Shown: one piece after another, positions 29,720 to 48,907 of the stretch
How positions within the stretch are numbered: position 1 is the first letter of the stretch
How the letters are laid out: each line of letters opens with the position of its first letter
Origin: Corynespora cassiicola
Taxonomy: Eukaryota; Ascomycota; Dothideomycetes; Pleosporales; Corynesporascaceae
Direction: 5' to 3'
DNA: 64,000 nucleotides
Assembly (NCBI GenBank): GCA_022059125.1
Contig: JAEUWY010000023.1
Coordinates: 868,001 to 932,000 of the forward strand
The notes under the pieces: generated by a model
The model's input: the letters and a program-made list of their open reading frames with translations, nothing else
Databases searched by the model: none
What the model was told of the DNA's origin: nothing
Position numbers and translations under genes: made by a program

Positions 29720-30703
29720 GCTTCCACTTCAAAGGCTCTAATGGTCGTCATTGACGCACAGAGTATTTAGTATTAATACACAGAGAACTACCATGACTAA
29801 GTTAGTCGACTAGAGTACCCGCGCTTACAGCGTTGTCTTCATCTGAAAATTGACGGCCCGATGTATGCTTTTAGACACTGTCAGGCTATCCTAGATGCGG
29901 AAATTGTCTGTGCGTGCATACAGGGCCGCCAGAAGCTTTCCCAGGATAGGAACATCATTGGGAGAGAAGCAGCGTGATTCCTTGCCATCATAGGCCGCTT
30001 ATCCGAAATGGCTCTGGAGATACCGGTGGAGAATTGGAGATACCAGTGATTTGCGCTTGGACGAATCCCCAAAAGACCGCTTAGCAGACTGAAATCCGAA
30101 GATTTTCGGGGCCCGCTTTTCTGGGAACTTCCCTGGAACTGTATGTCCTCGATTGAGTACTATGGTGTGTTCCCTGTTGCCAACGCTCTCAGATCGGGGC
30201 GTTTATGTTGGAGAGTATATCAGCACAAGGAGACGAATATTTTGCGATCGTTTGAAATAACCCTTGACCAATCGCTGAGATTGATCACAAGTCTATTCAG
30301 CAATCTCTATCTATCTATCAACAAACCTGGCGACTGCTTGGTTTCTGCATGAACCTAAGATATGGTGTGACAGAGCTGATCCGCGGATGAGAGAAAGGGC
30401 CCGTACGCCGCTGTTGGCACACCTCTTCCCAGAGGCTGCGGAGCGGCTTGCGACGTCACAAGTCCCAATTGGTTTGTTGAAAATACACTTTTACGATGCA
30501 TACTAAGGGGGGATTGGGGTCAATTTCACCGCCTAGAAGTTCAAAGGCCCGAATTGGGGGGAGACTTCCAAGGAATCAGAACAACCGCAGCATATAAAGT
30601 CGTTTCAGCCTATTAATCAGAATTGCTTCCATCTTCACTTTCCAAATCATCCTTTGAACGCAGGTTATATCGCTCTCAGCATCCAAATCAAAAAATAATC
30701 ATC
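29720..30703. other. Divergent promoter region between the NmrA-like and SDR genes
   Basis: About 980 bases, more AT-rich than the left part of the window. A TATAAA lies near 30593-30598, 106 bases before the SDR start. No gene supported. Confidence 0.6.
30593..30598 (+). promoter_or_regulatory. TATA box of the SDR gene
   Basis: TATAAA in CATATAAAGT, about 110 bases upstream of the ATG at 30704. Confidence 0.55.
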
Positions 30704-31746
30704 ATGAAGGTCCTTCTCACTGGTGGTAGCGGTTTCCTCGGCAAGCACTGCCTGGACATTCTGTTGCAACGCGGGTATTTCACTTCTTCCCCTTGTCTAT
30801 GTCTCTGCTAAGATCAAAAAGTCATACTGTAGTTACGACAGTGCGAAGCGATGCCAAGGGAAAGGCATGCCTCGACGATTATCCGAGCTTCTCTGGCAAG
30901 CTTTCATATACAGTCGTGGAAGACATGGCACGTTCGGGTGCCTTTGATGAGGCTGTAAAGTCCGAGCCGCCATTCGAAGCTGTTGTTCATACTGCCAGCC
31001 CCTTCCATTACCATGCAAAGGATCCTAAGCGCGACATGATCGATCCAGCTATAATGGGCACCACCGAGATTCTGCGTGCAGTCAAGAAGGGGGCGCCCTC
31101 CGTAAAGCGAGTCGTCATCACTTCTTCATTTGCATCCGTCATCAACATGGGGGAGAACATCCCAGTCTACACGGCTGACATCTGGAATCCCATCACAATG
31201 GAACAAGCCTTGACAGGCGGTCCAGCTACTTATGTCGGAAGCAAGAAATTTGCAGAGAAAGCCGCGTGGGATTTCATCAGCCAGGAAAAGCCTGGCTTCA
31301 CACTTGCTGTCGTCAACCCAGTCATGATCTTCGGTCCTGTCACCAACCACCTCAAGTCTCTTGATAGCATCAACACCTCCAACCAATCCTTTGCGGATAT
31401 TATCCAGGGCAAGATGAAGTCAGAGATTCCCGAGGGAGGCTTCCAGTGGGTCGACGTCAGGGATGTTGCCCTTGCTCACGTTCGGGCCATGGAGGTCGCG
31501 GAGGCTGCAGGGAAGCGTTTCCTGGCTGCTTCTGGGCCCTTCTCCAATGCTCAGATTGCCAAGATAGTCAAGGAAAATGTACCGGAGTTGAAAGGCCAGC
31601 TTCCAGATACTATTGAGGTTCCAGAGGAGAAACCCGGTTACGTCCTCGATACCACCCCTGCACGCGAAATTTTGGGGATATCCTTCCGATCTCTTCAAGA
31701 GAGTGTCGTAGATACAGTACAATCGTTGATGAAGGTTGGGTCATAG
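30704..31746 (+). CDS. Dihydroflavonol-4-reductase/Gre2-like NADPH ketoreductase
   Basis: An extended SDR with exons 30704-30774 and 30822-31746, giving 331 residues. MKVLLTGGSGFLGKH is the cofactor loop, VVITSSFAS the catalytic serine region and YVGSKKFAEK the Y-x3-K pair. The central signature AVVHTASPFHYH matches the DFR/Gre2 family of aldehyde and ketone reductases. The intron is 47 bases, with a CTAAG branch site, and falls in the Gly24 codon. Relatives in fungi act in detoxification of carbonyls such as methylglyoxal or in secondary metabolism; the context here (reductases and a regulator nearby) allows the second but does not prove it. Confidence 0.88.
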
Positions 31747-31899
31747 ACGCAACTCATCGAGAAAGACTCAATCGCCATAGTTCACGATCAATTGAGTCGT
31801 GATGCGTTTGCAAATCTACTTTGCATTTTATCTTCCAGTAAGTGCAGATATCAGCTTACCCTCCCTGCCTAACCAGTGTATGATCTGGCTACGATAGTC

Positions 31900-34197
31900 A
31901 AGAGCTCTGCGGTTCAGGGTGGATGGAACGGCCCGTAGACAATCTCAATAGTTTATTTCCTCTCTTCATAGCCTTCAATACTGTTTCAATGAGATACAAA
32001 TCGGTCCCTTGACATGCTTGTCAGGTATTATCATGCAAGTTTTTGAGTTACAAAAACTCACCTGGGGACGAGGCTACAGAAACGCTAATGGACATAGGCT
32101 CCTTTCGATTGCTTGAGCGAGAAACATACGTCATTTCTCCGATTGGAGCCGTTACTTCAGGTGTTCCAGATATAGGGGACAGATAGAGGGGCGAGAAACC
32201 ACTGATCAAGCTAAAAGGTGGCGGGGGTGCGTCTCTGTAATTCGGTTCACCATTTTCGATTGGCAACACGACCAATACGCCACCTCCATCGTTAACCCTG
32301 AATATGTGATCGAGAGCCCATGATTTGTATATATGCAGCCTATCCATCAATTTATCTCTCTGATCGTCTGTGACATTCTTTGCAACTTCCCCGTAGTTCG
32401 TTAATTGCCATGGAATGAGTCATACAATCCATATACTTACCACCTCCATTTCGAAGCACAGTACACGAAAGGGGGTTTTCCAAACTTTTCCTTGTACTCG
32501 TTCCGAAACCTCGCCAACTGATCGTATGAATCTCTATAGGATGGGAGAGTCCCAGCCTGACAACCAGTCAAATAAGTATAGCAAGTAGAGAACGTCTCTT
32601 TACCTCTATCAAGTACTTGGCAACGTCATCTTTCTTGACTCCAGGAGGGGGAAATTTCTTCCATTGGTCGGCAAGGCATACTTCTGTGCGCTTCAAACCC
32701 AATTCCTCCTCAAGACTTTTGACGAACGACTCTATTACTTCGGTCTGTGCTGCATTGCTTGTAGGCAGATAGTCTTTAGGGTAAAGTATCATTCTAGGTT
32801 TCTGTATGAGTTAGTAGCGCTTTAGGCAAATCAAATGGTCATCATTACCTCGGCTACCGACTTCAAGAGCGTAGAGTTGCTGTACCATGCTTTGGCAAAA
32901 GTAGGAAAGGTAATGAGGTCACGACTAAAAAAAGCCGGTACATCGAACATTCTACCGTCAGGTCAGTACCTAGCTGTGTCCTACAGGTAGTGTTCTCATA
33001 TGGACAAAATGAAATGACGCCCTTGGTACTCAGCACACCATATGTTGGCCTGATTGCGAAGACGCCGTTCCAGTGAGCAGGTTTCCTACAACTGCCATTG
33101 GTATCGGATCCGATCGCAAAGTCTACCCAGTCATAGGCGCACAGAGCGGCACAGCTCCCACTACTGCTCCCGGATGACGTCTGATAACCATCACCGCGGG
33201 GGTTAAACGGCGCAAGATAGTCTACACATTCCATCTTTTCTTCGCGAACTATCATAGCGTTGAGCTTTGTCTTGCCGATGATGATGGCGCCTTGATCCAA
33301 GAGTGATTGGATTGAAGGTGCATTTTCTTTGCTGGCAGGGTAGAGATCCTTACATGCTCTGTTGCAGAGTGAAGTCTTCGTACCGGCAATGTTGAACATA
33401 TCTTTCACCACGATGCGCAATCCATTGAGGGGCTTGCTAGCAGATTTCTTAAAGTAACAACGCGAGGGAACAGCGGCAGAGAGTGGGTTCCTTTGGTCGA
33501 CTGAACCGTATTCGACTAACCTGTAGCAGAGTCAGTAGGTAGTTATGAGTATATGTACACATTACGCACTCATTGGGTTGTATGTTTTTGGGCCGAAAGG
33601 AAGTTATTAGTGTATCGTGGGTATCATTGTAGATCCTCCATGGCTGCCATGTCATCTTGCGACCCACCACATAGAGTCCAGGAGGTGGCGGATCCTCACG
33701 TACTCTGCCTGGTATAAATAACCATGCTCCAAATTTTCGTGAACTCAAAAACTCAAGGATATCGTTGTCCACGAACACTTTGTCCTGGTTGCTGCCGAAA
33801 AACACAATGTTGTTAAGGAATGATGTGCGATAAACATCATCGATTGCCGAGCAGGTTTCCAAGTACTCTAAGAGGATGTCCTTAGTGATGATATCGCCAG
33901 GAGAAACATGGTAAACGAAAGCCAGCTGGAAGGTGATCTCACAGCCCGTAATGCCAGCGAGGTAGTCCTGTTGGTTTCAGTTATTACCCTAAGGTATCGC
34001 CTTGCTCTGGAAGCTAGATTACTGACCTTTCCCATGGGGACAAGCAATTATCGTACGCCATCTATAGTAATTTTCAGATCGTCGTCGCTGCGGTAGAGTG
34101 CAGTACTCGTTGGAGCTATTGGTTTCCCTGGTAATGAACTCTTGAGCGTACTCGGAGCCAACAGCGTAGCTAGCCGAAAACGAAACCACTTCATCAT
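31900..34197 (-). pseudogene. Decayed amidase-signature gene of a longer, N-terminally extended type
   Basis: Family homology can be followed through nine segments on the minus strand: 34197-34027, 33967-33570, 33520-33002, 32951-32849, 32801-32604, 32556-32441, about 32390-32062 and 32007-31900. Amidase features remain: VVKDMFNIAG (Lys), SSGSSSGSCAAL (cis-Ser) and GSDTNGSCRKPA (nucleophile). The last segment ends STGRSIHPEPQSS. Three lesions are seen. There is an in-frame TAA at 34048-34050; an alternative donor GTACGA at 34055 could splice round it. The donor of the intron 33001-32952 reads AT instead of GT. The acceptor before 32390 reads GG instead of AG, and the only nearby AG leads to an early stop. 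Other introns are canonical, so decay looks recent. Confidence 0.75.
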
Positions 34198-35730
34198 GAC
34201 TTCTGCTTTTGAACTATCCAAGGTGGTAGAAAGTTTCAAAGGCTTCCGGTTCTGGGAATGCGTCAGAGAGCAGCGTTGGGAGAGGGCAACTACCTCTGAT
34301 TGCGAGTTGTGGCAAGCTGTGGGGATTATGTCAGCAAGGTCCGTGATGGGTGGCACAGAAGACAACCAACCTTGGAATGCACCCGTAGCGTCACATGCGC
34401 AATTCGGCCGCGATTATTATTGATGAGTCTCTAGCATTTTTCCTAAGTCTAAGTCTTTGTAGAAGTCATATTCACGTGCATTGGTGGCTGCCATTGTGTA
34501 GAAAGAGGATAAGTTGGATCAACTCGAGTATTGACTATCTGCGATGCAATTGTGCATGTTGGAAGCTGCAATTGAATATCAAAGTCTCAAATAGCTGAAT
34601 AGTGACTTCACTCAGGGCAAGTATTTAAACCTGGGTAGCGTTCGTTCTTGATACAAAACACAAGTGAATAGCCATTCCTGAGGTAGCCTGTGCCCGAAGA
34701 GGCGTGCTTTACCCAACAGATAGCACTTTCAGCAAGCTGAAAACATTAATCAAGGCAAACCAACCCCACAAACAGTCCTGTGAGGATTATTGGCCGTATT
34801 CTACATAAGCTAGACAATTTAATTAAGAGCAAAGTTCTCTTGTTATCACGTGAAGGTAAATTCGCCTGGGCGGAGAAGTCAATGTCCCAAAGCTACTGGT
34901 ATCACAAGCTCTCACTCAATTGGAGTCTTTTTTTTAATGGCTGTGACCACCGAGTCACTGGCCTCTGCCACAAACTACCAGGGCATCATGTCCGTTGGAA
35001 GAACAACGAAAAGGCACAGTGCGTGAGGACTATGAATCTACTGAGAATGACTTTACTGATGCATAGTGGAGAATTGGTCAACCGCGCTCTGAAAATATAG
35101 GGACCATGGTACTGAAATCAGACTGCCCGAAAAAATGTTCTTGAAAGTAATACATCTCATGTCCATCGGAGGCGAAAAAGAGAACGAGGGCAAGATCTGC
35201 ATCGAGGGAGCGAAGGGTATTGGCCGCGCTATATACTTGAGGACGACGATACGGGCGATGGTGACAACTATCGGGAACCTCGAGCGAAGCCTGAGATTGA
35301 TGAAAGATGTTTTGACGATTTGATGGTACTCTGGCCCTGGTAGGGGATATGCCTGGCGAGGAGGGGGGAAGACGGGAGTAGTCTGCAGCGGGGTGTCCTA
35401 ATTTCGCCTCACCCCTACCCAAAGTGGGGCCTCGCAAGATCCTTGTAAGCCTGCTTGAGCCGAGCCTTAAACAACCTAGCACGTGCTCGGACGATGCATC
35501 CCTGCTGTAAAGATGGAAAACATCTACACCCCTATGTCGCTAAGGTCAGATAGGGACGCGGTATCTCCCGGAAACATTAGGTGTCTTGGTTTTCCAATCG
35601 TTCGGTAGCCAAGGCCGAGGTCCAACCGTTAGCGCTTTCTCGAGCGGTTTCGAGAGATCTACTCAAAGCCACCTTTTTATTATATCCACTTCCATCCTCC
35701 AAGATAACTGCGGGTGTTTTTCCGGCAATC
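34198..35730. other. AT-richer intergenic region before the Zn2Cys6 gene
   Basis: 1.5 kb with no frame that resembles a protein family on either strand. It may hold the promoters of the decayed amidase and the regulator. No terminal repeats or transposase remnants were noticed. Confidence 0.5.
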
Positions 35731-37517
35731 ATGGTGTACCGTAAAAATAGCAGAGGTTGCCTCACATGTCGCGAGCGCAAAATCCTTGTGAGTCGTCCCG
35801 TGTGAAAACCAAAACTAACATGCAAGCTCACAACAGCTCTATCTAGTGCGATGAGGGCCGACCTGTATGCAAAAAATGTCAAAAAGCAAAACGCCACTGT
35901 TTAAGCGGGCAGGTGAAACGGAATATTGTTCCTGATAGTAAGCCGAAGGCTGCCTCTCTCCCTAAATGGCCAATCTTGTTGAGTCACAGTGCTCCATTTG
36001 CTTCCAGTCCATTCTGTCATGTAGACGGTATCGGGTATCGGTTTACTGTTTTGGCGCCACATTTGTGCCATTCCGCAACCAGCAATACGGCTATTCTTCG
36101 TGCGTTGTCAATACTTGCTGTTACGGCTCCATGCTCCAAGCTCTTCGACGGCCTTCTGTCACATCTGCCAGATCTGTTCTTGAAGGCGGACTCTCCAGTA
36201 CTTCCTGCCGCTGCACTCACTTGCATACGCTCTCTGAGTGTACGTGCTACTCGGGATCATAGCATATTCATCAAAGCCACAAAGATGCATATAGAGTCAT
36301 TAAACTCTCTGAAAAATGCAATCTGTAAGCCTCGCCGGGCTAGGAATTTAGAAACCCTGATGGCTGCTACACTGCTTTGTCTCAACGAGGTAATAATCAC
36401 CAAGCACTCTTGTTTGCTTTCATCGAATAGGCAAAATGGCTAATGAATCGCGGTCAGATTATTTGTGGGTCAGAAACATCAGTCGCTGAGTGGATAGCTC
36501 ATATCAAAGGTCTCAATGCTCTGATTAATCTTTGGGGTTCTGACCTGCTTCAAAATAACATTGGTCGCACTGTCTTTCGTGTATTTCGAGATCAGTGGGT
36601 GAGTCGCTTTCTTTGACTGTAACGTATCTTACCAGATATCACTCACTTCCACCATCATGCACACGTATCATGACACCTCCATTGAATTACGATGATCATT
36701 TAGCTAAAGTTCATTCTCTCAGATTTTCAGCGGTCTTCTACACTGTAATACGGATATTGAAGCCTTCGATTCTGCGATGCTTGGCGCATGCACTTCTTCT
36801 TTTCTTTCATCGCTAGAGCCTATACCAAGCGAATCAGTCCTTTATACGTTGATATCAAACCTTCTGATACTCGGTAGTCAATTCAGAAAAGCTGATAATC
36901 ACGGTTACCCCATATCAATATCCGAATTATATCGTATGCAAGACGAAATCATGGAGATAGAACACCAATTACACATCTGGGCCCTAGAGACGCCGTTGAA
37001 CTGGCAACCATCGACAATAGTTCCGACCCAAACCACCGTGGTCAACTTACAAAACGACCCTGTAGCTCATTCCTACTGTTCGCTACACGTGGGCAGAGTG
37101 TGGAATTTATACCGCGTCTTCCGAATATTTGCAAACGAACTACTAATCCGGTGCGTTGATCTATGTAAAAACACCGTCCATGGCGGCCTAAAAGCTGTAG
37201 CTGTAGCCGATTCAGCCAAGCAGACTATTGGGAATCAAGCCGATGCTGTCAATGCCTCTACTGTATTCTTTCTGGGAAGCCCTACAGGACACTCTAATAA
37301 TCTTGAGCTGCAATTCCTAAGGCCCGCGGAAGAGGCTGACGCTATTATCTATGCCGGTCACTGCATAATGTGGCCGCTCTTTGTCGTAGCACGCGCCAAT
37401 ACTCTTGATAATAAACGAAGAAGACTAGCTTTGGACAGGCTCAGGTATATTGCCGATGACCTGGGTATCAGACAAGCCCAAGTGCTTTGTCGTATGGTGG
37501 TCGCTTCTTCGATATGA
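35731..37517 (+). CDS. Zn2Cys6 transcription factor with fungal-specific domain
   Basis: Exons are 35731-35787, 35847-36389, 36431-36598 and 36723-37517, giving 520 residues. The binuclear zinc cluster is CLTCRERKIL plus CDEGRPVCKKCQKAKRHC, fitting C-x2-C-x6-C-x6-C-x2-C-x6-C, and is split by intron 1 at the third cysteine. After a short basic linker the rest fits the Fungal_trans_2 type (INLWGSDLLQ, FRVFRDQW). The third intron, 124 bases, is the least certain: it was chosen because it is the only splice that rejoins both frames, and a short exon might lie inside it. Such factors often regulate adjacent metabolic or transporter genes; here the neighbours include two broken genes. Confidence 0.75.
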
Positions 37518-37808
37518 GGGACTTGTTCAGCCTAAGAAGAATCTGCTTCTAGCTGTTATTTTCAGCCTAGTGGCAGCCGAGGGCAAAACTACATTTGTAA
37601 AGTAGAAAGAATTAGCATTGTAGGCGCAAATCATTCGCAGAATTAGTGCTCTTTTCACAAACTGACGCTTCTAAAAAGATAAAGAGGTGTTGTCTCTCTA
37701 TTTCACTGCCCCATAGTCGGCAAAACCTCATGTCATTATAAATATACCTTATTTTTTGATAATGAGGACTTTTAACGGGAGAATAAATAGGCATATCTCG
37801 ACATGGAT

Positions 37809-37855
37809 CTTGCGACATTGTACCGGGTTCTTGCGACATTGTACCGGGTTCTTGC
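37809..37855. repeat. 21-base tandem duplication, about 2.2 copies
   Basis: The unit CTTGCGACATTGTACCGGGT plus T is repeated exactly at 37809 and 37830, with a partial third copy (CTTGC) at 37851. Confidence 0.95.
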
Positions 37856-38160
37856 TGAGCATAATATTCCGTGATTTTCGACCGTCAAGTTAGCGTATAT
37901 ATCCTGTCCTAGCGTCACTTTTCTCATTCCAATATATGCCGAGGGTGGCTGTGGCTCGAATATGTACAGCACAGGGCATGATTAAATGACTATTGGTCAT
38001 GTTCTGGTATGATTGGAATGACTCCACTCCATAGTTTGGCCCTTGCACTTCACAGCTGCTGCCTAGATTCGGCCAAAATTCAGCCATGATTACCGTCCAT
38101 CCGAGCTTGAGGCTATACAAACTAGCTAATAGGGCCGTATGGAAGCATTGAAATCTTGGA

Positions 38161-38169
38161 TATATAAAG
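38161..38169 (+). promoter_or_regulatory. TATA box of the beta-propeller gene
   Basis: TATATAAAG about 100 bases before the ATG at 38262. Confidence 0.55.
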
Positions 38170-38261
38170 CAGTCAAGACGTGTCTGGATCATTCATCAGA
38201 ACTTCATCAGCTTTTCTTCACTGGCCTTCACTTGCTTCTTTCGTCTTTTGAGACCACTACC

Positions 38262-39914
38262 ATGATGCTGAATATCAGAAAAGTAGCTTCAATACTACTG
38301 TTCCTCTCGGTCCACACGGTAATTTGTAACCTTCAATGGCATCTTTTCCACAACTGATGAGAATAGAAAGGATCTAGCGGCGCTGATTCGGGAGCATGGC
38401 AGACTCCAGTTGCTGCTGTCCAGCCGCTCGTCGGGCCACCATTCGAAGGGCACTCAGCACAAGCAAATCCCATAAGACCGAAGACAAAATACAGCCCATT
38501 CTCTTTGACCTTCCATCGAGACTCGGGAAATACGCGTGCCGAAGATTATCCTGGTCCGCTGGGAAGAAACATTCAAGTTTCGTCTGCTGCGAACATCGCA
38601 CCTATGGGCTTGATGTGGGATGATGGAAGGCTTACCACCGGAGCGGTATATAATGAGACTATAGACTGCATCGTCGCATTAGATCCTGAGACATTCGACA
38701 TCAAAGCAAAGTGGACAGGCCCTACGGACAAAGGCACACAAATTTCGGCTGCATTCTTCGCCTACTCTGGCTTCTATCAAGGCCGGTTTGTAACAGCTGC
38801 TGTAGGTCCCCGCATCATAGAGATTGAACGTACCGACATCAACAATCAGACTTCGCTGAAGTTGGTGGCGGACAGAGACCTCTCTGATGCTATCGGCAAT
38901 AACACTCAGATATTCAACACAGGATACGATGGCGATGGCAATCTGTGGTTCACCACAGGCGCATTTGGATTTCCAGACGAATTTGGAGAGCCCGGAGATA
39001 GCAGCGCTACCAGCACAAGTGTCACGATCGGATACATTTCGCCCTCAGAAACGATACGCAAGTTTGAACTCCCCAATACCGCTGTGGAAAATACTATTGC
39101 TATAAGTGGCTCTGTCGTATACGTTGTTACCGGCCCTGCGGGGGAGAGCGACCATGTGGGCGCAGTAGGGCATCTATATGCCTTGGAAGCATGCTCCGAA
39201 GGCAATGGGATTAAGATTCTTTTCAAAGAAGAATATGATGCTGGTGATTTCAGGAAGCCAGGTGGCGTTGCGCGAGGGTCCGGTTCCTCTCCAGGACTCT
39301 TAGGCGACGAATACATCTCCATCACCGACAACGCCAACGGACAAATCAACGCGCTCTTTTTCAAACAGGCGAAAAATCCCTCCAGCGGAAGTAACCTAGC
39401 CTGAAAAGTTCCCCTTTTCACCGCCAACGTCAGTTCGACTGATAATGCCGTTGGTGGATATTTCAATGGAGAGACGTACAGTATCATTGCCACCAACATG
39501 TACAACGGACCAGAAATCATCAGCCCTTGGAACGCTTCAATTAAAGCGGACAGCCCGTCTCAGAAAGTTGAAATCCCAGCTCCAGGCATCGCTCGGGTTG
39601 ACTTCGACCCTAGAGATGGGTCGTGCAAAACCGTGTGGGAAGTTGATGTGCGCGCGACTGGAATTCCTATCTTGTCTACTGCCTCTGGAATTGTTTATCA
39701 GTATGCCCAGGATCATGAGATGGCTCTCACTGGCTCTTACGTATGGTACTTGTCAGCTATCGACTACCGCACAGGCGAGTTACTCTATCGTGTGCGCGTC
39801 GGTGCAGGGGGCTTGTACAACAACAACTACTCGGGACTGTTCTTGGGACCGGATGGTGCCATATATGCTTATGTAATAGGCGGTGTCGTGAAGATCTACG
39901 ATGGAGTGGTGTAG
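38262..39914 (+). pseudogene. Secreted beta-propeller-like protein interrupted by one in-frame TGA
   Basis: Exons are 38262-38318 and 38367-39914, read as one frame of 534 sense codons with a single TGA at 39402-39404. The first exon is a signal peptide (MMLNIRKVASILLFLSVHT) and ends exactly at a GT donor. The rest has repeated blade-like segments such as GYDGDGNLWFTTGAFGF, GAVGHLYALEAC and SGLFLGPDGAIYAYVIG, resembling quinoprotein or SMP-30-like propellers; the family is not recognised precisely. After the TGA the frame continues for 170 codons with equally good protein-like sequence and normal stop. No intron of credible length removes the TGA. If translated only to the TGA, a 363-residue truncated protein would result. 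Confidence 0.75.
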
Positions 39915-40647
39915 AAAGTTACGCATACCGGTCCTTATTCGTAGATATAGTTGAATATGCGAGAGATCGCATAGGCCATCTACCTCTGTGTTGAACTCTC
40001 TAGACATCCTTATCTTCTTACTCTCAGCCAAGGTATTTCCTCCCGAATCACTTCTTTTGTGATCTGAATTTTGTCCTTGGGGATAGCTCGTGTATAGACT
40101 TCGACCGAGATAAATGTCACATTCTACTTCTTGTGCAGTTATTGGCTAAAGTTTATTCATAAACAAACTTAGATTTTAGTATATCACGGATATTAAACGG
40201 GTAATACCTGTATAATCTGCCGTGTTTGCTCTTCGTGTTGTTTTTGTGGGCCTGCTTTCAAGAAAGACCCATGTCCTTCGGCCCGCAGATTCGCCAAATA
40301 TGCCGATTTCGGTACCCTCGCGACCAGACTAAACACAGATTAGCCTCATTGGGGTTATTTTAACTGAGTCTTCCAAAATACAGCCGGGATGTCGAGAGTA
40401 CCGTTGTGAACGATGCGTAGCAGCCAAATACTGCACACAACTTTTGCACCGAACAGTTGTCCGTTCGGAAATGATAGAAAAGAACTATCATGTTAAGTTA
40501 TATGCTAATACGATTTAATGGTGATATAAATATCATCAAGGTCTGGCAGATATGCTATCAACATGCTCATACTGAACCAACGGCGACAAGCAACTTACTG
40601 ATATCTTCTTCACTATAATTTGTCAGACACATCTCTACCTAAACAAC
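39915..40647. other. Intergenic, beta-propeller to orphan gene
   Basis: 733 bases, AT-rich, no supported gene. A TATAAAT lies near 40525, about 120 bases before the next start. Confidence 0.55.
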
Positions 40648-41235
40648 ATGACTTCTATCAAGGGATATGAAATCGGCGAAATCAAAGCAAAAGCTGCGTT
40701 CATTTCTGACATCATTCTCGATGCGAGAATCGATATCTCTTCTTGCGTTAACGAACAAGACTTGGGGCGCCGGGAGATGGATGTTCGAAAAGGTATGTAC
40801 ATCAAGTATGTACCCTATCAGCCGCACCCAGTCACTGGGCAAGTCATGGCTGGTGGGCGCTATCTTTTCGATACTTGGGAAGATGTTCTCAACTACGATC
40901 ATTGGACCACAAACGTTTATGAGTACGGCAACCCTCCGGAGAAGTTTTGGAGCTGGTCTATGATGAAGAAGGTCGACCGATGGAACTGGCGTGTCACTGG
41001 CGCATACCACTTCTCCCACCCCGAAACTCATGGCATGAGCCGATTCCAGCGTTGGAGTTACGACGGAGATGATGCAGAAGAGCAACTTGGCGAGGTTTAC
41101 CCCCGCATCCGCGATGCTGCGCAAGCCAATGGGGCTGCAGGAGTATGGCTCTTGTACCAGCCTGATGCCAAACTCATCGGTCTTTTCACCATCATGGAGA
41201 AAACCAACGGTATTGGACATTGGTTCGGTCTATGA
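40648..41235 (+). CDS. Uncharacterised 195-residue cytosolic protein
   Basis: A single-exon frame starting MTSIKGYEIGEIKAKAAF. It has no signal peptide or membrane span. It is rich in aromatic residues (FWSWSMMKKVDRWNWRVTG, HWTTNVYEYG), and the composition is that of a folded enzyme. The segment GGRYLFDTWEDVLNYDHW followed by a beta strand recalls dimeric alpha/beta-barrel mono-oxygenase-like proteins, but this is only an impression. The C-terminus EKTNGIGHWFGL may be conserved. Function unknown; it sits at the edge of the reductase/regulator neighbourhood. Confidence 0.65.
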   Translation: MTSIKGYEIGEIKAKAAFISDIILDARIDISSCVNEQDLGRREMDVRKGMYIKYVPYQPHPVTGQVMAGGRYLFDTWEDVLNYDHWTTNVYEYGNPPEKFWSWSMMKKVDRWNWRVTGAYHFSHPETHGMSRFQRWSYDGDDAEEQLGEVYPRIRDAAQANGAAGVWLLYQPDAKLIGLFTIMEKTNGIGHWFGL

Positions 41236-41738
41236 TACACTGGAGGGTCTCAAATCTCAGCTTTCTCTCGAATACCTTTTGCCGGGATCTCTCGGTCTGA
41301 AGCCAATCTTCGATCGCTCCAGCCTCAATCTTTCCATGGGGCTTCCAAAGTCCCGTCTAGCCGGAGGTGTTCATCAAGCCACCAATCTAGCTCCTGTACT
41401 CCCTTCAGTCACCGTATAGTCCCGCATACCAGGGTCTACTGGAAGTGACAGTCGTGGAAGAAAGGCCAGACCAATAGTTAGTTGGATAGGTGGAAAAATT
41501 CAATATTTTAGCCGTATTCTCGAGCACGTTTGAGTGTCTACAGTGTTTTCACCTCTAAATGCGTGTAACTGACGCACTTTTCGGTACACTAATGGAGCTT
41601 TACTAACAATCTAAAAATTTGAAGTGCATTGGAAAAGAAAAGCCTAGCAATATAAAGCATCATCCATTACTTCTCAATATGACTGCAACTCGATGAATAG
41701 AAAAGTATATCTTCCAAATCCGAGTTGTTAATTCCTGA
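41236..41738. other. Intergenic, orphan gene to CHAT gene (convergent)
   Basis: 503 bases between two converging stops. A frame open to 41419 overlaps the orphan gene's end but shows no recognisable feature. Confidence 0.55.
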
Positions 41739-44700
41739 CTAAGCACCGAAATGCACGAAATTGGCCCACAACAGCACATCTTCTGACCCTTTAGCCCGTC
41801 CGAACTTTGCACCTCGACAAGCTGATGTAGCAGTATGAAACGCACGTGCTATGCGATCGTCCCTTTCTAGTTCCTGATCATCTTTTGCATGGCTCATCCG
41901 GAACAGCTCTTGATAAAACACTTTCGCGATAAAAGCCGCCGCCTTATCATCAGCCTCCCAGAGCGTTCCATTTACCGCTGGAAACCCCATGAGCTGGAAG
42001 ATGCTGGCGAGATGGATGTTCTCGTCCAAAAGTTTCAGTTCGTACTGCTGGGCCGTGCAACATGCAGAGAGATAGGCGAGTTGCGGCGCTCGGGAGGAGA
42101 GATTAGCATTTCCGTTGAATTTTCTTAGATTCTGTATGGGAAGTGGGTCCGGCGAGTCTGCACTCCGGTCATTACCAAACAGTAGGGCAGTCTTTGACGG
42201 GTCGCTGAGGTCTGGCTCCGCGTGACATGAGAAATGGAGGATGTCAACCTCGCTGCCGCGCACTCGCTCTAGAACTTGTGCTGAGGTGGGCTGACAGAGC
42301 TCGACTAATTTGCTGTCCTCCTCACTAGTTTCAGAAGTTGAGAATGCGTCTCGTACTGCTTGTGCCTCGCCCTCGGTATTCAGGCTAGACCGCGCCGGAG
42401 TATGAGGCATTGTCACCAAGGCCACATTGGGTGGTTGGACCGACACCTTGGATTGACAATCCCTGGCGAACTGCAAAGCCGAACAAGTGGAGGTATAGGA
42501 TGGTAAGACATGGCTCCACGCATTTTGTTTGGGGTATTTGCTGCCTTTCCCAGCTGCGTGCAGCGGCATGAGCCCAAGGTATCCACTTGTAACGAACCAC
42601 AATCTTGGGAGAGTCGACGGTTTTACGTCTTGCAGTAGATCCAAGTGATTGAGCACTGGCTTTACAGCCGTGTCCCAAAGCCATAACAGCAACGCTCTCA
42701 TCTGTTTGTTCGCTGCTGGACGTTTTGACGGTGGCCTGAGGCTCAGCCTGTTGTCGCCGGTGACAAGTGGTATCTTTTTCTGAACTTCTGCAAAATCAAG
42801 CTCAGGGAGCGGCAGGGAATCTATCGCATCTGGCTTTATGACAAGCGCATATGAATTAAACCCGAAAGAGACGCAGAAAGACACAAGAGGTCCTCGATTG
42901 GCGAGTTGGCATATCTGCTTTGCGGACATACTTTGGTTGAAATTTTCCAGTCCTGGAAGCTGTCGAATCTCGTTTTCGATCTCCTCGAATCTTTCCTGGT
43001 CGCGATTAAGCTTTGCCACAAGATCCATCTCTTGTTTCCCCTCCACTGCTAGTGGTTGCGATAGCGAGTGGCGAAGCTCCGTATATTCTGTATGAAGGGC
43101 AGGGCTTTTTTCCTCCAAGATTGGCAGTCGGTCATGTTGCCGTATAGCAATATTTGCCATGATACCGCGCCCAGCTTCCAAGATTGTGGCACCTTCTTCT
43201 GGCTTACCCAGCATAATGAACGACATGCAAGCGTTCATTGACATCCCACTAAGACCACGAAGCTGGCGCTGGCGATCGTTTTCGTCCAATGATAGAGGAC
43301 TGACCTTCTGAAACATACGAATACTTTCGGACAATATCTCACTAGCAGACCCCCAGTCCTTCAAGCTCATGTAGCATCGACCGGCCAGCATGCCGTTGCG
43401 AATTTTGCTGGAAGGCGTCGCGAAGCGATGCTCGAGACCTTTACGATGTGAGGATATGGCAAGGAGGTAGTTTTCCTTCTTCTGCTCCTCGTCATCGTCC
43501 AGCAGCAGCACGTTCAGCAGTGCCTGCCTATAGCCTAGCGTGCAAAGATACCACGCCATGTCGGGATCATTTTCCGGTAGGATAGCAACACAGTCTTTCT
43601 GGATATCCAGAGCTTCATGCAGGTATTTGGATTTCTCTTCCAAGTCCTCCGTGAATTTGGATCTTTCTTGAAGCATACCCCCCAGATTCATCAGCATCCT
43701 TGCTCTCTTATGGTTCGAAGCGGGGCTTTTTTCTGTGTCGAACTCGTCAGCTTGAGTTTCTTGGCCAAAGGCTTGTATTGAGAAGTGATGCAGATAGGAT
43801 CATACTCACCAAGTACGCCACGCATGAGCTCAATAGCTCGGTCAATCTCATTCAAGTCATTCGTAACTTTGAATTTCGATGAGAGTAAAGATGAAAGGGT
43901 TGTTTGATAGAATACCAGGTCACCTTCATCGTGGCCACTACATGATATTGCCTCGGATACGAGCTTGATTGCTCTATCAATGTCGTCTATATTTCCTAGA
44001 CGCGAGAACTTTTCGCTCAGAATGCTGGCCAAAGAGTGAAGTCGCCTCGGATATTGAGCATGTCCTGTCAATAGCAAGTCAGCATCCCCGACAAGACACA
44101 AGTAAGAACGATCTATGTAGTCGAGTGACTCACCCTTGTTTGTACTCGCAAGGACATTTTCTGATGCCGAAAGCGCCTCTTCCATGTCTTCTGAGTTATG
44201 TATGCACTTGAACCTTGCCTGTAGCAGTTGGCTTAACAGATCAAGCATAGAGTATCGAGAAGGATCATCGTTCAAAACAGCCGACAAAGCTTCACGCTCT
44301 ACTTGAATACTCTCTTCCAGAACTTGAATATCCCCTGAACTCTTGAAGACTTCCATGAGTCCATTAGCCAGATTATGCAATCTCAATGACCGCTTTGCGT
44401 GGTCTGCTGGTAGAGCCAAAACAACCTGTCTCAATAGCTCTATGGAAGCGCCCAAATTATCTTCGCCGCCAACAAGGTGATACTTGATTCCAAAGCTAGT
44501 GGAGAGGATGGTGTTTGCTCTCAATGAAGACCCCAGAAGATGACTCTCTTTCACGGCCTCTTTGGCAGTTGCCATTGCGGCATCGATGTCTTCGACTGAA
44601 GCCCGAAGCGTGGCACGACGACAGAGTTGAGTAGCCAAGTTCTCCAAAGCCATTACTCGATGATGTATATTGTTGGTTCTGGGTTTTGCCGCTTCCTTTG

Positions 44701-45673
44701 CTGTCCGAAGTGCTCGATCCAGATCAGCTGGATTGGAGAAATGGTCATATTTCGCTCGAAATAGCATGCTCTTGGTGATTGTAGCGGATACGAAGACATC
44801 GGCCGTGGAATTACGGAGATCAACAGCATTGATGGATCGAAGCGCAAGATCCAGATTCTTGACATCGTTTGTCCTTCTGATGTAGAGAAGTTCACAATCG
44901 GCGACTTGTATTGCGGTTTTGTTGTGGTATTTGTTATCGGGAGGGAACAACGCCAATGCGGCAGAAAAGTTTGAGCGGGCAGACTCGAGGGTTTCCAGAT
45001 CCTGGCACCAATCATATTTGCGCTTGAAGCCTGAAGCTCGCTCGAAAAGATAGACGCCCTTTGCTATCTCAAAGGGCATGTCGATAAGAGTCTTTACATG
45101 CCCAAGCGTTTCCATATCTTGTGGCAGCAATTGAACCTTATCCTTCCACTTTTTCGAAGCCGATAAAGCACTCTCAGCCATTTCAATTGCCTCTTGCTGA
45201 TCACTCTTGTTCTTCTCTCCATGTGCAAAATAGCGATAAGAGTATGCTCTGCCCAAAAAGCAAGCTTCCAAGACGTATGCGTAAGAAGGTTTCGGCGCAA
45301 GTTCGTAAACGGGGCGCATTAGGTTGATAGCTTGGTCGAGGACTTTGGCGTCGTCTGTAGCGAAGAACAAGCGTTGTAGCTTGAGGCATTGCATGATGGT
45401 TGAATCGTGCACGAACTCGCCCAGGGAGTCGTTGCGCTTGAACACATGCATTGAATAACCCTCATTGACCATGTTCATGCCTTTCTGAAGAAGCCTGATG
45501 GCTCCATGGAGACCCTCAACGTCTCCTGTTGCATCATAATGGCTTTCCTGTTGGTTAATCTGACGTTCCAACTGCGTGGCTGTACGGATTCTCTCCTCTG
45601 TGTCCTTGTCCAAAACACCAAAGGCAGAACGCATCGAGCCTCCAATGCGATCTATGACCTTTGAGAAGGGCAT
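41739..45673 (-). CDS. TPR-CHAT protein, putative caspase/separase-like protease
   Basis: Minus-strand exons are 45673-44134, 44064-43810 and 43702-41739, giving 1252 residues. The 69-base intron is a multiple of three and is hidden inside an open frame; the 107-base one joins two frames. The first true ATG gives MPFSKVIDRIGGSMRSAF. About residues 40-850 are helical TPR-like repeats of the form LDQAINLMRPVYELAP, IDRAIKLVSEAI and LEESIQVEREAL. The last 350 residues are a CHAT domain: the His site is LHFSCHAEPD (His about 1092), the Cys site is AYLSACCTAQ (Cys about 1146), and the end is LLWANFVHFGA. CHAT proteases with TPRs cleave partner proteins in bacterial and fungal cell-death systems. 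It is divergent from the gasdermin-like gene 631 bases away, which is the obvious candidate substrate. Confidence 0.88.
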
Positions 45674-46304
45674 GGCAAATCGGCGGGTTGGTGTTTGTAT
45701 TTCGATTAAGAAAAATCCTGAAGCTTCGAAAGTTGAGATGGCTGTTAAATTTGTCGCATTCAAGTAACAAAACGATCAAAGTGGATATAGGTGACGAATC
45801 CTGAGCGTCTATTTTTGTCGTTCCTCGTCAGATTATTTTACAAGGCGGTCGGAAAATTGCCTAGATGGGAGGGATAGCGGATGTGGGGCAGCGAATAAGC
45901 ACTAGGCAGGGTGATAATGCGCTACAATTCCAAAGGAGCACACAGGTTTTGGGGCTGTAATACCACCGAGGATCAAGCAAGGCAGAATCGCATCTACCAC
46001 TGCATCCTCCAGAGCTAAGGAGGAAAAAGGTTCTGGAGGAACATAATTTAACTGGTCCTCTCATCCTTCGGCCAATTTCGGAGTCCTTACGTCGCGTCGT
46101 CTAGAAGGGGACAGTCTATTGAGGCGATGCTAGAAGTGCTCCGAGCGTTTTAGTGTACTTTAATACTACCAGCCACGTTGAGCAGAGCTGTGACAACATT
46201 TATAGGTCGCCATCTCCAATCTCAAGTCACGTTGAAACGAACAATCAGCTCATCACATAAGTACGCACAAAACGATTCTCACTTAGAACTTTTCTCCCGT
46301 TCAA
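45674..46304. other. Shared promoter between the CHAT and gasdermin-like genes
   Basis: 631 bases between the two divergent ATGs. No gene is seen. A short shared control region fits co-regulation of a protease and its target, but no specific site was recognised. Confidence 0.5.
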
Positions 46305-47374
46305 ATGGCGGCCAATCTACTTCTCCTCAACGAATTCTTGCCGGCGTCGGCACTGGGTTTGGGATGGCTCGCCGATTCCCTCAAGGACCCCATGATGGAT
46401 GCATACCAAATGACAAAACCTATTCCTGCCGACTCAGTATTGCGTATGGCAGGGCAAAATTTCGAGAGTCTTGCATCTTCGGCGAGCACAAACTCATTCC
46501 GACTTTCTCTAACGCGCCTCTTGAGCAACTCGGACAGTTTTAAGTCTGCGCAAAATTCAGAGCTCAAATCAGTGCAAGTCAATCGCTACCTACTTCGCCA
46601 GCCGAAGATGCTCTTCAAGCAGCTCGTCAAAGACGAAGAGGCACGAGCTTGGTTGAATGAAACCATCGAAGCTGGCCACAAGAGCTACCTCATCGTTGAG
46701 TTGCAGACTGCCAAGGATCCTTCTCTCTCAAGAAGTGAATCGAAGGAAAACGCCGTCGATGTCGACGTGACTGTACCTGTTAGCACCATCGCTACAGGAG
46801 GTATGGATATTCTAGGTCTGGGTATGTTTTAAACTCCATTCTTGAGTCTTTGAGGGACTGCATACGTGGTTCTACATAGGCCGATGGACATTTCCGCAGC
46901 TAACCAGTCGGAATAGGAGAGCAACTTGACTCTGGAGCCGGTGTTGGGTACTCAAGGTCTGAGGATAACAAGAAAAGCTTCTCGCTTGAAGGAGAGCACA
47001 TCTTTGCAATTGGCTTCAAACGAATTGTATGGCGAAGCTTGGGGTTCAGGCAAGTTCTCTCTCCCGGGATCATCCAACACTGCGACTAACATAGTTTTCA
47101 TAGCAAAAACATCGATAAAGCGAGGCTTGATGATAAGATAACATGGTCTGTGTTCGGAGAGAAGCGCGGCAATAACGAGGAGGAGGTCATCAGTGCCGAC
47201 CTAGCCGATGAGCTTGACGGGAAATACAAGGGCGATGAAGGCGACGAAGGAGAGGAGGATGAAGACGAAGACGAAGATGATGATGACGAAGAAGTAGCAG
47301 AGCTGCTCGAGAAGAGTGTTGCAGTCGGCGATCAAGTGTATATGGTAGCAGGAGAAGACGAGGATGAGGAGTGA
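46305..47374 (+). CDS. Gasdermin-like pore-forming protein (candidate)
   Basis: Exons are 46305-46821, 46917-47049 and 47104-47374, giving 306 residues. The second intron has a GC donor (AG|GCAAGT) and a normal AG. The N-terminal 250 residues follow the pattern I associate with fungal gasdermin-like proteins (HET-Q1/RCD-1 type): an N-terminal helical segment (LGLGWLADSLKDP), a Ser-rich strand region, ARAWLNETIEAGHKSYLIVE followed by an amphipathic Ser/Thr-rich strand, then EGEHIFAIGFKRIVWR and IDKARLDDKITWSVFG. About 50 residues at the C-terminus are almost all Glu/Asp, with EVAELLEKSVAVGDQ in between. In this family a short C-terminal part blocks activity until a linked protease removes it. 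Recognition rests on memory of family patterns, not on alignment. Confidence 0.6.
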
Positions 47375-48907
47375 CAAACCCACTTTGACCAATAATGCTA
47401 CAAAAAATATTCATGAAATCCACCTTTTTGAAAAAATAATGATATACTACAGTTTTGATGGGAATCTTCTGGAAGATTGTCAATATGCATGTCTTCGTCC
47501 TAAACAGGAAATTCTATTTGGAAAAGCCAGCTCCTGTAGACAGGCTCAACCCACACGCGACCAAATTTTAACACACCAAAATGAAGCAAATATAGCCATG
47601 AGAAAGGAAACTCGACTTTTTATGAATAGATAGCTTGCTTTTCGTCATATAAAAGCCCCGAAAACAGCCTTGTATGCACCTATTTAATCTCATGCTGCCT
47701 AGCTGAATCGTAGGCTTAGCACCAAGTCCAAAACTTGGTTTAAAAGAGAAAGAGAAATTCATCTCATTTATCGGTGCGACTCACAAGTACTAACATTACA
47801 TTAACCAACATTACCGTCAACAAAACGCCCAAAAGATCCCAACAAACCAAGAAAAATCCATCAACAATTACTTTTTAAAGAGCTGCCATCACCCCAAAGA
47901 AAACCCAAGGCCCGAATCGAAACAAAACACGGGTGGATAAGATACAGTGGGAGTAGACGGAAACGTGTCTATCCGTATCATAGGCCGACGATGAGTTGCT
48001 ACCAGCAACATGACCTAAGATCAAACAAATTCGAAGAGCCTGTCAAGTGTGCGCGGGCCAGCAAAGCTGATGCAGGATGACTTATACGGTCGTAAAACAA
48101 ATATATCACCATTAGACGAAGCTTCAGTTCAATACAGGTGGGTATAAAGCCCGCCCTCATCCCACCTGCCTTCCACATGTTAGGATGTACCATGCTGACG
48201 ATGATTGAAATGCGAGTTGGAAGAGGGCGGCAGCGTGAGGGATACATGCGGTTCGACGACAACAGGATCTCAGCGGTATCATTAGAGGATCTCAGAAGAA
48301 GATGTTGGAGCAATAAGGTGTAAATATGGGTTAGTGGATAATGGAGTTGTGAAGGTTTTTCGAAGAGCGAGATGAGTTGGAGGGATTTTGAAGCAGACCG
48401 AGCCAGAGTGACATTTAATAATGCGATGCAGGTTCAAGCTATCCTTCCTTTCTAAATCTTTGTTTTCTTCCCGATTCTAGGAGAGGGGTCGGTGTCCAGA
48501 GCATGAAGTTGTTGCTCGACGTGGTCGTAGAAGTTGTGATGTCCTGCGACAGGTAAGGCCACACGAGATCTAGACAGCTGAACCTTCCCCAGAATGAAGC
48601 GTGCCAAAGGCGAGGAACTACATCTAGTATTGGCAAGCAGATTTCGGTACGGTTTGCACCCATTGCTACCCAGCAGTGAAACCAGAAAGCCTGTTGTTCA
48701 TTTTTGGCAGCATTTGATGACTGTAATGCTCGAGCCCATTTCAACTTTTCCAGTACCAGGTAACAAAACCACAAAGACGTATAAAAGACCCAAAGCCATC
48801 CGGCCAAACCCATGAAAATCTACACATCCCCACCATGCACAGGTATCACCCGCAAAAACGCCTCAAAATGCAAACACGCGCTCTCCCAGCAAACAACCCT
48901 CGCCACC
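47375..48907. other. Intergenic after the gasdermin-like gene
   Basis: 1.5 kb, AT-rich on the left and more balanced on the right. Short open frames on both strands (for example 48439-48813 minus) show no family features. Confidence 0.55.

Follow-up and report, generated by a model that had tools for sequence, protein, structure and literature searches.

A divergent CHAT protease and gasdermin-like gene pair in Corynespora cassiicola as a candidate fungal cell-death switch

Background

Fungal gasdermin (fGSDM) genes are often located beside genes encoding S8 or CHAT proteases, as the first-pass annotation of the DNA described here had noted. According to reviews, about 80% of these genes cluster with protease genes and 19% with CHAT genes (PMC10197012), and CHAT proteins make up about 17% of the fGSDM partner proteases (PMC10989679), making CHAT-controlled fungal gasdermins a minority class. 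Here we report on a compact, testable pair of this type outside the model genera, in the plant-associated fungus Corynespora cassiicola (Pleosporales, Dothideomycetes). The pair was identified in a window of 64,000 bases, the whole stretch of DNA analyzed, which corresponds to contig C23:868001-932000 of an assembly comprising 44.35 Mb in 23 contigs. It consists of a gene for a large CHAT-domain protein and a divergently transcribed gene for a small gasdermin-like protein.

A two-gene cluster of a gasdermin gene and a TPR-CHAT gene was reportedly described in Podospora anserina by Clave et al. in 2022. As summarized in a review (PMC12881547; see also PMC10989679), a TPR-bearing CHAT protease activates the gasdermin of its own two-gene cluster. 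By that review's description (PMC12881547), the P. anserina cluster resembles the locus studied here in that a gasdermin-like gene adjoins a TPR-bearing CHAT gene. It differs in that activation by the protease is reported there, whereas cleavage is predicted here, and in that the tether and terminal element discussed below are described here for the C. cassiicola lineage. The HET-Q1/HET-Q2 system of P. anserina, as reviewed, offers a parallel in the short C-terminal inhibitory part of HET-Q1 (about 5 kDa, 40 residues), which is cut off by HET-Q2. However, HET-Q2 belongs to the S8 serine proteases and its gene and that of HET-Q1 are idiomorphs, whereas the present system involves a CHAT protease and a single genome contains both genes. 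RCD-1 of Neurospora crassa (PDB 8jyx, 8jyy, 8jyz) differs in being controlled by the pairing of two allelic variants, with no cleavage according to the same review (PMC12881547), and gave no sequence match to the small protein in PDB searches with a single sequence or a profile. Bacterial gasdermins with protease partners (PDB 7n50, 7n51, 7n52) also differ, with no sequence-level relation shown and no PADLOC match. A large CHAT-domain protein is likewise encoded at a cell-death (incompatibility) locus, hetB, of Aspergillus fumigatus (PMC11138114), but there the alleles are idiomorphs and the involvement of a gasdermin is left open by the authors. The triggers of fungal gasdermin pathways are presented as an open question in PMC12881547.

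Given that CHAT-gasdermin pairs have already been published in fungi, the window pair belongs to a known type of system. It is a good testable pair rather than a new kind of system, one that recurs in related fungi with a built-in safety tail to test and in which both the inhibitory element and the segment to be cut have clear candidates. As far as literature titles showed, the present analysis adds the tether-plus-element tail, the linkage of the two genes from Pleosporales to Caeruleum, and a one-chain form in Phyllosticta. By title, none of the 15 papers listed, out of 41,888, for acidic inhibitory tails was on point, and the matches returned for gasdermin together with Corynespora, Phyllosticta and Dothideomycetes concerned CARD9, a food plant and het-B of Podospora, respectively.

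Results

Structure of the divergent gene pair

The fGSDM-like gene lies on the forward strand and comprises three exons. Exon 1 (46305..46821) encodes residues 1-172 and the first base of codon 173, and is followed by a GT-AG intron of 95 bases (46822..46916), exon 2 (46917..47049), a GC-AG intron of 54 bases (47050..47103) and exon 3 (47104..47374), with the stop codon at 47372-47374. The spliced protein agrees across the GC-AG intron with its homologue from C. cassiicola Philippines (P0001), which has the same length and is 99% identical (302 of 306 residues, four differing). The TPR-CHAT gene occupies the reverse strand and is also divided into three exons (44134..45673, 43810..44064 and 41739..43732, the last including the stop codon). 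It encodes a protein of 1262 residues, a small departure from the 1252 of the first-pass annotation, and its homologue in C. cassiicola Philippines (P0040) is of identical length, with 18 of 1262 residues differing (99% identity). The start codons of the two genes are separated by 631 bases (45674..46304), so that both the head-to-head arrangement with this gap and the length of 306 residues proposed initially for the small protein are reproduced by the gene models. The pair sits inside a low-GC stretch of the window (30001-48000), where GC content is 45-50% per 2-kb bin, versus 51-63% in other bins (47% in the last bin).

The large protein carries a conserved CHAT protease domain

Residues 945-1261 of the large protein (41745..42695, reverse strand) match the CHAT domain of Pfam (PF12770) with an E-value of 2.4e-30 and a score of 106.4 bits, the cut-off being 24. 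Both motifs named beforehand, LHFSCHAEPD and AYLSACCTAQ, are present in this domain, and they contain a putative catalytic dyad composed of His1102 (42224-42222) and Cys1156 (42062-42060), the positions being those expected of the catalytic pair in the CHAT/caspase clan. The search for CHAT homologues returned 189 proteins, 120 of which were listed and form the basis of the residue counts. The His1102 column holds His in 119 of these 120 sequences, with one gap, and Cys1156 is conserved in all 120; the loss of this pair, for which CHAT orthologues were to be inspected, was thus not seen among the listed homologues.

In a precomputed domain listing, the nine nearest CHAT homologues (P0040-P0048) contain CHAT alone, and TPR families are listed for many of the more distant ones. 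P0040 scored 23.2 bits against a cut-off of 300 for the NCBIfam model of Csx29 (NF041237), the TPR-CHAT protease of Craspase. Comparison between C. cassiicola and Aaosphaeria arxii yielded 73% identity for the protease domain and 54% for the repeat part, beside 80% for the gasdermin, and the corresponding values for the protease domain and the repeat part were 46% and 26% in the comparison with Caeruleum heppii. Judged from these sequences, a faster-diverging repeat part, a slower protease and a steady gasdermin show the pattern expected for a putative sensor and its executioner.

The small protein is predicted to adopt a gasdermin fold

The identity of the small protein was assessed through structure prediction. 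The predicted fold of the 306-residue protein matches gasdermins, in line with the gasdermin-like motifs noticed at the outset, which are present, and supporting its proposed assignment as a fungal gasdermin. The model used for this comparison, the second obtained, has a predicted local distance difference test (pLDDT) score of 66; the first, built from 10 sequences (pLDDT 41, predicted template modeling score 0.38), was kept merely as a weak consistency check. At 306 residues, the protein has the size of a small fGSDM with a short C-terminal extension, reviews giving 244-257 residues for RCD-1 and 278 for HET-Q1 (PMC12881547, PMC10197012, PMC10989679). Its gene is also clustered with a protease gene of one of the two types typical of fGSDM, the CHAT gene 631 bases away.

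An acidic tether precedes a conserved C-terminal element

The C-terminal region of the small protein encompasses two distinct segments. An acidic stretch spanning residues 256-277 (47219..47284), in which 15 of 22 residues are Asp or Glu, is predicted to be disordered over residues 256-276 (pLDDT below 50). It is followed by a conserved element, residues 278-298 (47285..47347), predicted to form a helix (279-286) and two strands (288-291 and 294-298), with mean pLDDT values of 80 and 83 in the ten-residue blocks within 281-300. The first-pass annotation had described the protein as ending in a long Glu/Asp tail: the acidic stretch is indeed there, but the end of the protein is formed by the conserved element of about 20 residues behind it.

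To describe this region we used an alignment of 35 sequences (A3), 25 of them with at least 275 residues and 10 shorter. Both the acidic stretch and the terminal element are present in all 25 long homologues, and the net charge of the last 50 residues ranges from -12 to -24 in all of them. The column of Tyr296 contains Tyr in 21 and Phe in four of these sequences, with Leu, Met or Ile at the next position. Among the ten shorter sequences, P0030 and P0034 have the tail and seven are N-terminal pieces. Averaged over positions, the frequency of the commonest residue is 0.64 in residues 1-255 and 0.59 in residues 278-298; in the tether, where 18 of the 22 positions were scored, it is 0.46. The inhibitory part is more probably the conserved element than the acidic stretch by itself, and the tail is best read as a tethered inhibitory element, whose docking on the N-domain is suggested by the confidence values of the predicted model. 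Removal of residues 256-306 would entail the loss of 5.67 kDa.

The two genes are linked in other fungi

To assess linkage, two homologues were assigned to a shared contig when they lay on contigs with exactly equal numbers of bases. Under this definition, seven sources have an fGSDM and a CHAT homologue on the same contig: C. cassiicola Philippines (another strain of the species analyzed here), A. arxii, Rhizodiscina lignyota, C. heppii, Viridothelium virens, Polyplosphaeria fusca and a metagenome contig of 22,010 bases harboring a partial pair. Consecutive gene numbers in A. arxii, R. lignyota and C. heppii suggest that the genes are adjacent in these three, and V. virens and P. fusca present a shared contig only. 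Five of the six named species belong to the Dothideomycetes, the sixth, C. heppii, being classified as leotiomyceta incertae sedis. The conservation of the pair put forward for inspection is hence found beyond C. cassiicola. Seven of the 39 fGSDM homologues are linked in this way, all of them among the 20 that lie on contigs of at least 20 kb. Of the 11 best CHAT homologues, seven are linked and three (P0042, P0043 and P0049) show no partner. The distances among the homologues of one partner correlate with those of the other (r 0.82) across six linked pairs, leaving out the partial pair of the metagenome, but we do not use this value as support because species history alone would yield it.

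A further member of the 11 best CHAT homologues, P0044 from Phyllosticta capitalensis (1465 residues, in a cluster of seven sequences), combines a gasdermin N-domain and a TPR-CHAT part in a single chain. The former is 53% identical to P0003 over 256 residues and the latter 50% identical to P0042 over 1183 residues. P0044 lacks the acidic tail, and its CHAT match ends at position 229 of the 289 of the profile. P0044 may come from a genuine gene fusion, or tandem genes may have been merged in its annotation.

A proposed model for the locus

The data make it likely that the two genes at this locus form a fungal cell-death switch, in which the CHAT protease would cut an autoinhibited fGSDM at or near the tether. 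Trigger, cleavage, pore formation and purpose are inferred from published systems of fungi and bacteria, and tail docking is likewise an inference. The fGSDM, with a putative pore-forming domain at residues ~1-255, would be held inactive by its own C-terminus, the conserved helix-and-hairpin element (~278-298) docking on the pore domain via the flexible Asp/Glu tether (256-277). The 1262-residue protein would act as the sensor, combining a divergent, probably TPR, repeat region with a terminal CHAT cysteine protease, and sensor-protease and executioner would be produced from the divergent genes. Some trigger would activate the CHAT domain, which would sever the gasdermin in the tether or close to it, taking off about 5-6 kDa, and the freed pore domain could then assemble and insert in the plasma membrane, leading to cell death as a form of defense or non-self recognition. 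In this scheme, a caspase-like CHAT protease probably switches the gasdermin on. As a more speculative extension, this mostly Dothideomycetes lineage might possess its own safety catch, made of the disordered Asp/Glu tether and the docked helix-hairpin element and removed by the partner CHAT protease; in at least one fungus, P. capitalensis, the sensor-protease might have replaced the catch, yielding a self-cutting gasdermin-TPR-CHAT chain (P0044).

Several observations weigh against the cell-death switch. The first-pass annotation had proposed a TPR array followed by a C-terminal CHAT domain, and only the latter is borne out above threshold: the best Pfam match in the repeat region, TPR_10, reaches 19.8 bits against a cut-off of 27.5. 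The model of the small protein is of medium confidence, with 98 of 306 residues at pLDDT below 50, and its structural matches have low template modeling (TM) scores (query-normalized 0.16-0.35 in the first 35, and 0.26-0.35 for RCD-1 entries). No gasdermin family of Pfam, NCBIfam or PADLOC matched the 306-residue protein above its cut-off, and PDB sequence searches with the single sequence or a 10-sequence profile returned weak matches to other proteins and no gasdermin chain. The remaining short sequence of the A3 alignment, P0010 (266 residues), which was dropped from the tail count, stops before the acidic stretch. The N-domain is not net basic (net charge -8 for residues 1-255 and -1 for 1-240), so the idea that the tether simply masks charge is not supported by net charge. 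Lastly, for 32 of the 39 fGSDM homologues, of which 13 lie on contigs of at least 20 kb, none of the 120 listed CHAT proteins is on the same contig; with 69 further CHAT matches outside that list, this figure establishes neither linkage nor its absence.

Alternative explanations and genome-wide distribution

The genome contains at least two CHAT matches, the window gene and one on contig C1, and at least one clear and two tentative fGSDM-like genes. The tentative frames, both on the reverse strand of contig C4 (G000:C4:2327332-2326415 and G000:C4:3550091-3549264), were detected with a distant relative, P0036, as the query (E-values of 0.002 and 0.013) and span 298 and 260 residues from the first Met. 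PDB sequence searches identified no gasdermin for either of them, the best match of the second being a centrosomal protein (E-value 0.0077), and Pfam gave no match. Among the genome matches found, none to CHAT or S8 lies near either frame: at least 26 S8 matches were detected, none of those on the window contig, and the closest on C4 is ~529 kb away. No CHAT-fGSDM pair other than that of the window emerged among the at least two CHAT and at least three fGSDM-like matches of the genome.

The small protein could be an fGSDM that the neighboring CHAT protein does not cut, their linkage serving co-regulation and activation occurring otherwise, for instance through allele pairing as in RCD-1. The control of RCD-1 without cleavage, as reviewed (PMC12881547), provides a model for this, and the two tentative fGSDM-like genes, near which no CHAT or S8 match was found, together with the homologues lacking a listed same-contig partner, are in keeping with it. 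We nonetheless regard it as unlikely, since the pair is linked in seven sources and both parts occur in one chain, the His and Cys are kept, the tail that such a cut would take off is conserved, and the activation of a neighbor by a TPR-CHAT protein has a reviewed precedent (PMC12881547). It is considerably less probable that the small protein is no gasdermin but an acidic-tailed protein that regulates the CHAT protein or serves as its substrate, its fold matches stemming from a weak model. The missing sequence-family match, the poor first model and the low TM-scores of the second would fit this explanation, against which stands the agreement of the predicted fold with gasdermins. A chance juxtaposition of two unrelated genes is scarcely credible. 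Just one pair is adjacent among the CHAT and fGSDM-like genes found, but the rough odds of any of the 2 x 3 combinations falling within 1 kb in 44.35 Mb are ~1e-3, and the linkage in other genera, which is additional to this estimate, makes chance unlikely. The cell-death module first proposed for the CHAT protease and its gasdermin-like partner is thus supported, with nothing in the fold, His/Cys and linkage checks contradicting it.

Neighboring genes and a second divergent CHAT pair

In a search for a third gene of the cluster, Pfam analysis of 10 neighboring open reading frames revealed no NLR or HET domain. Matches to an epimerase, an alcohol dehydrogenase and a kinesin exceeded the cut-off, Tim17 and Fungal_trans_2 were detected below it, and the remaining five frames had no match.

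The other TPR-CHAT gene of the genome, at about 2,771,994-2,777,774 on contig C1, is also arranged head to head with a partner. The two open frames (L003:4832-7774, forward, and L003:4138-1994, reverse) have 693 bases between their first Met codons, and the partner, of 715 residues, contains a caspase (Peptidase_C14) domain (E-value 2.6e-19). This divergent CHAT-caspase pair constitutes a lead in its own right. The CHAT gene of this pair is adjoined by a reverse-strand open frame of the beta-lactamase family (L003:8264-7722; PF00144, E-value 8.3e-14).

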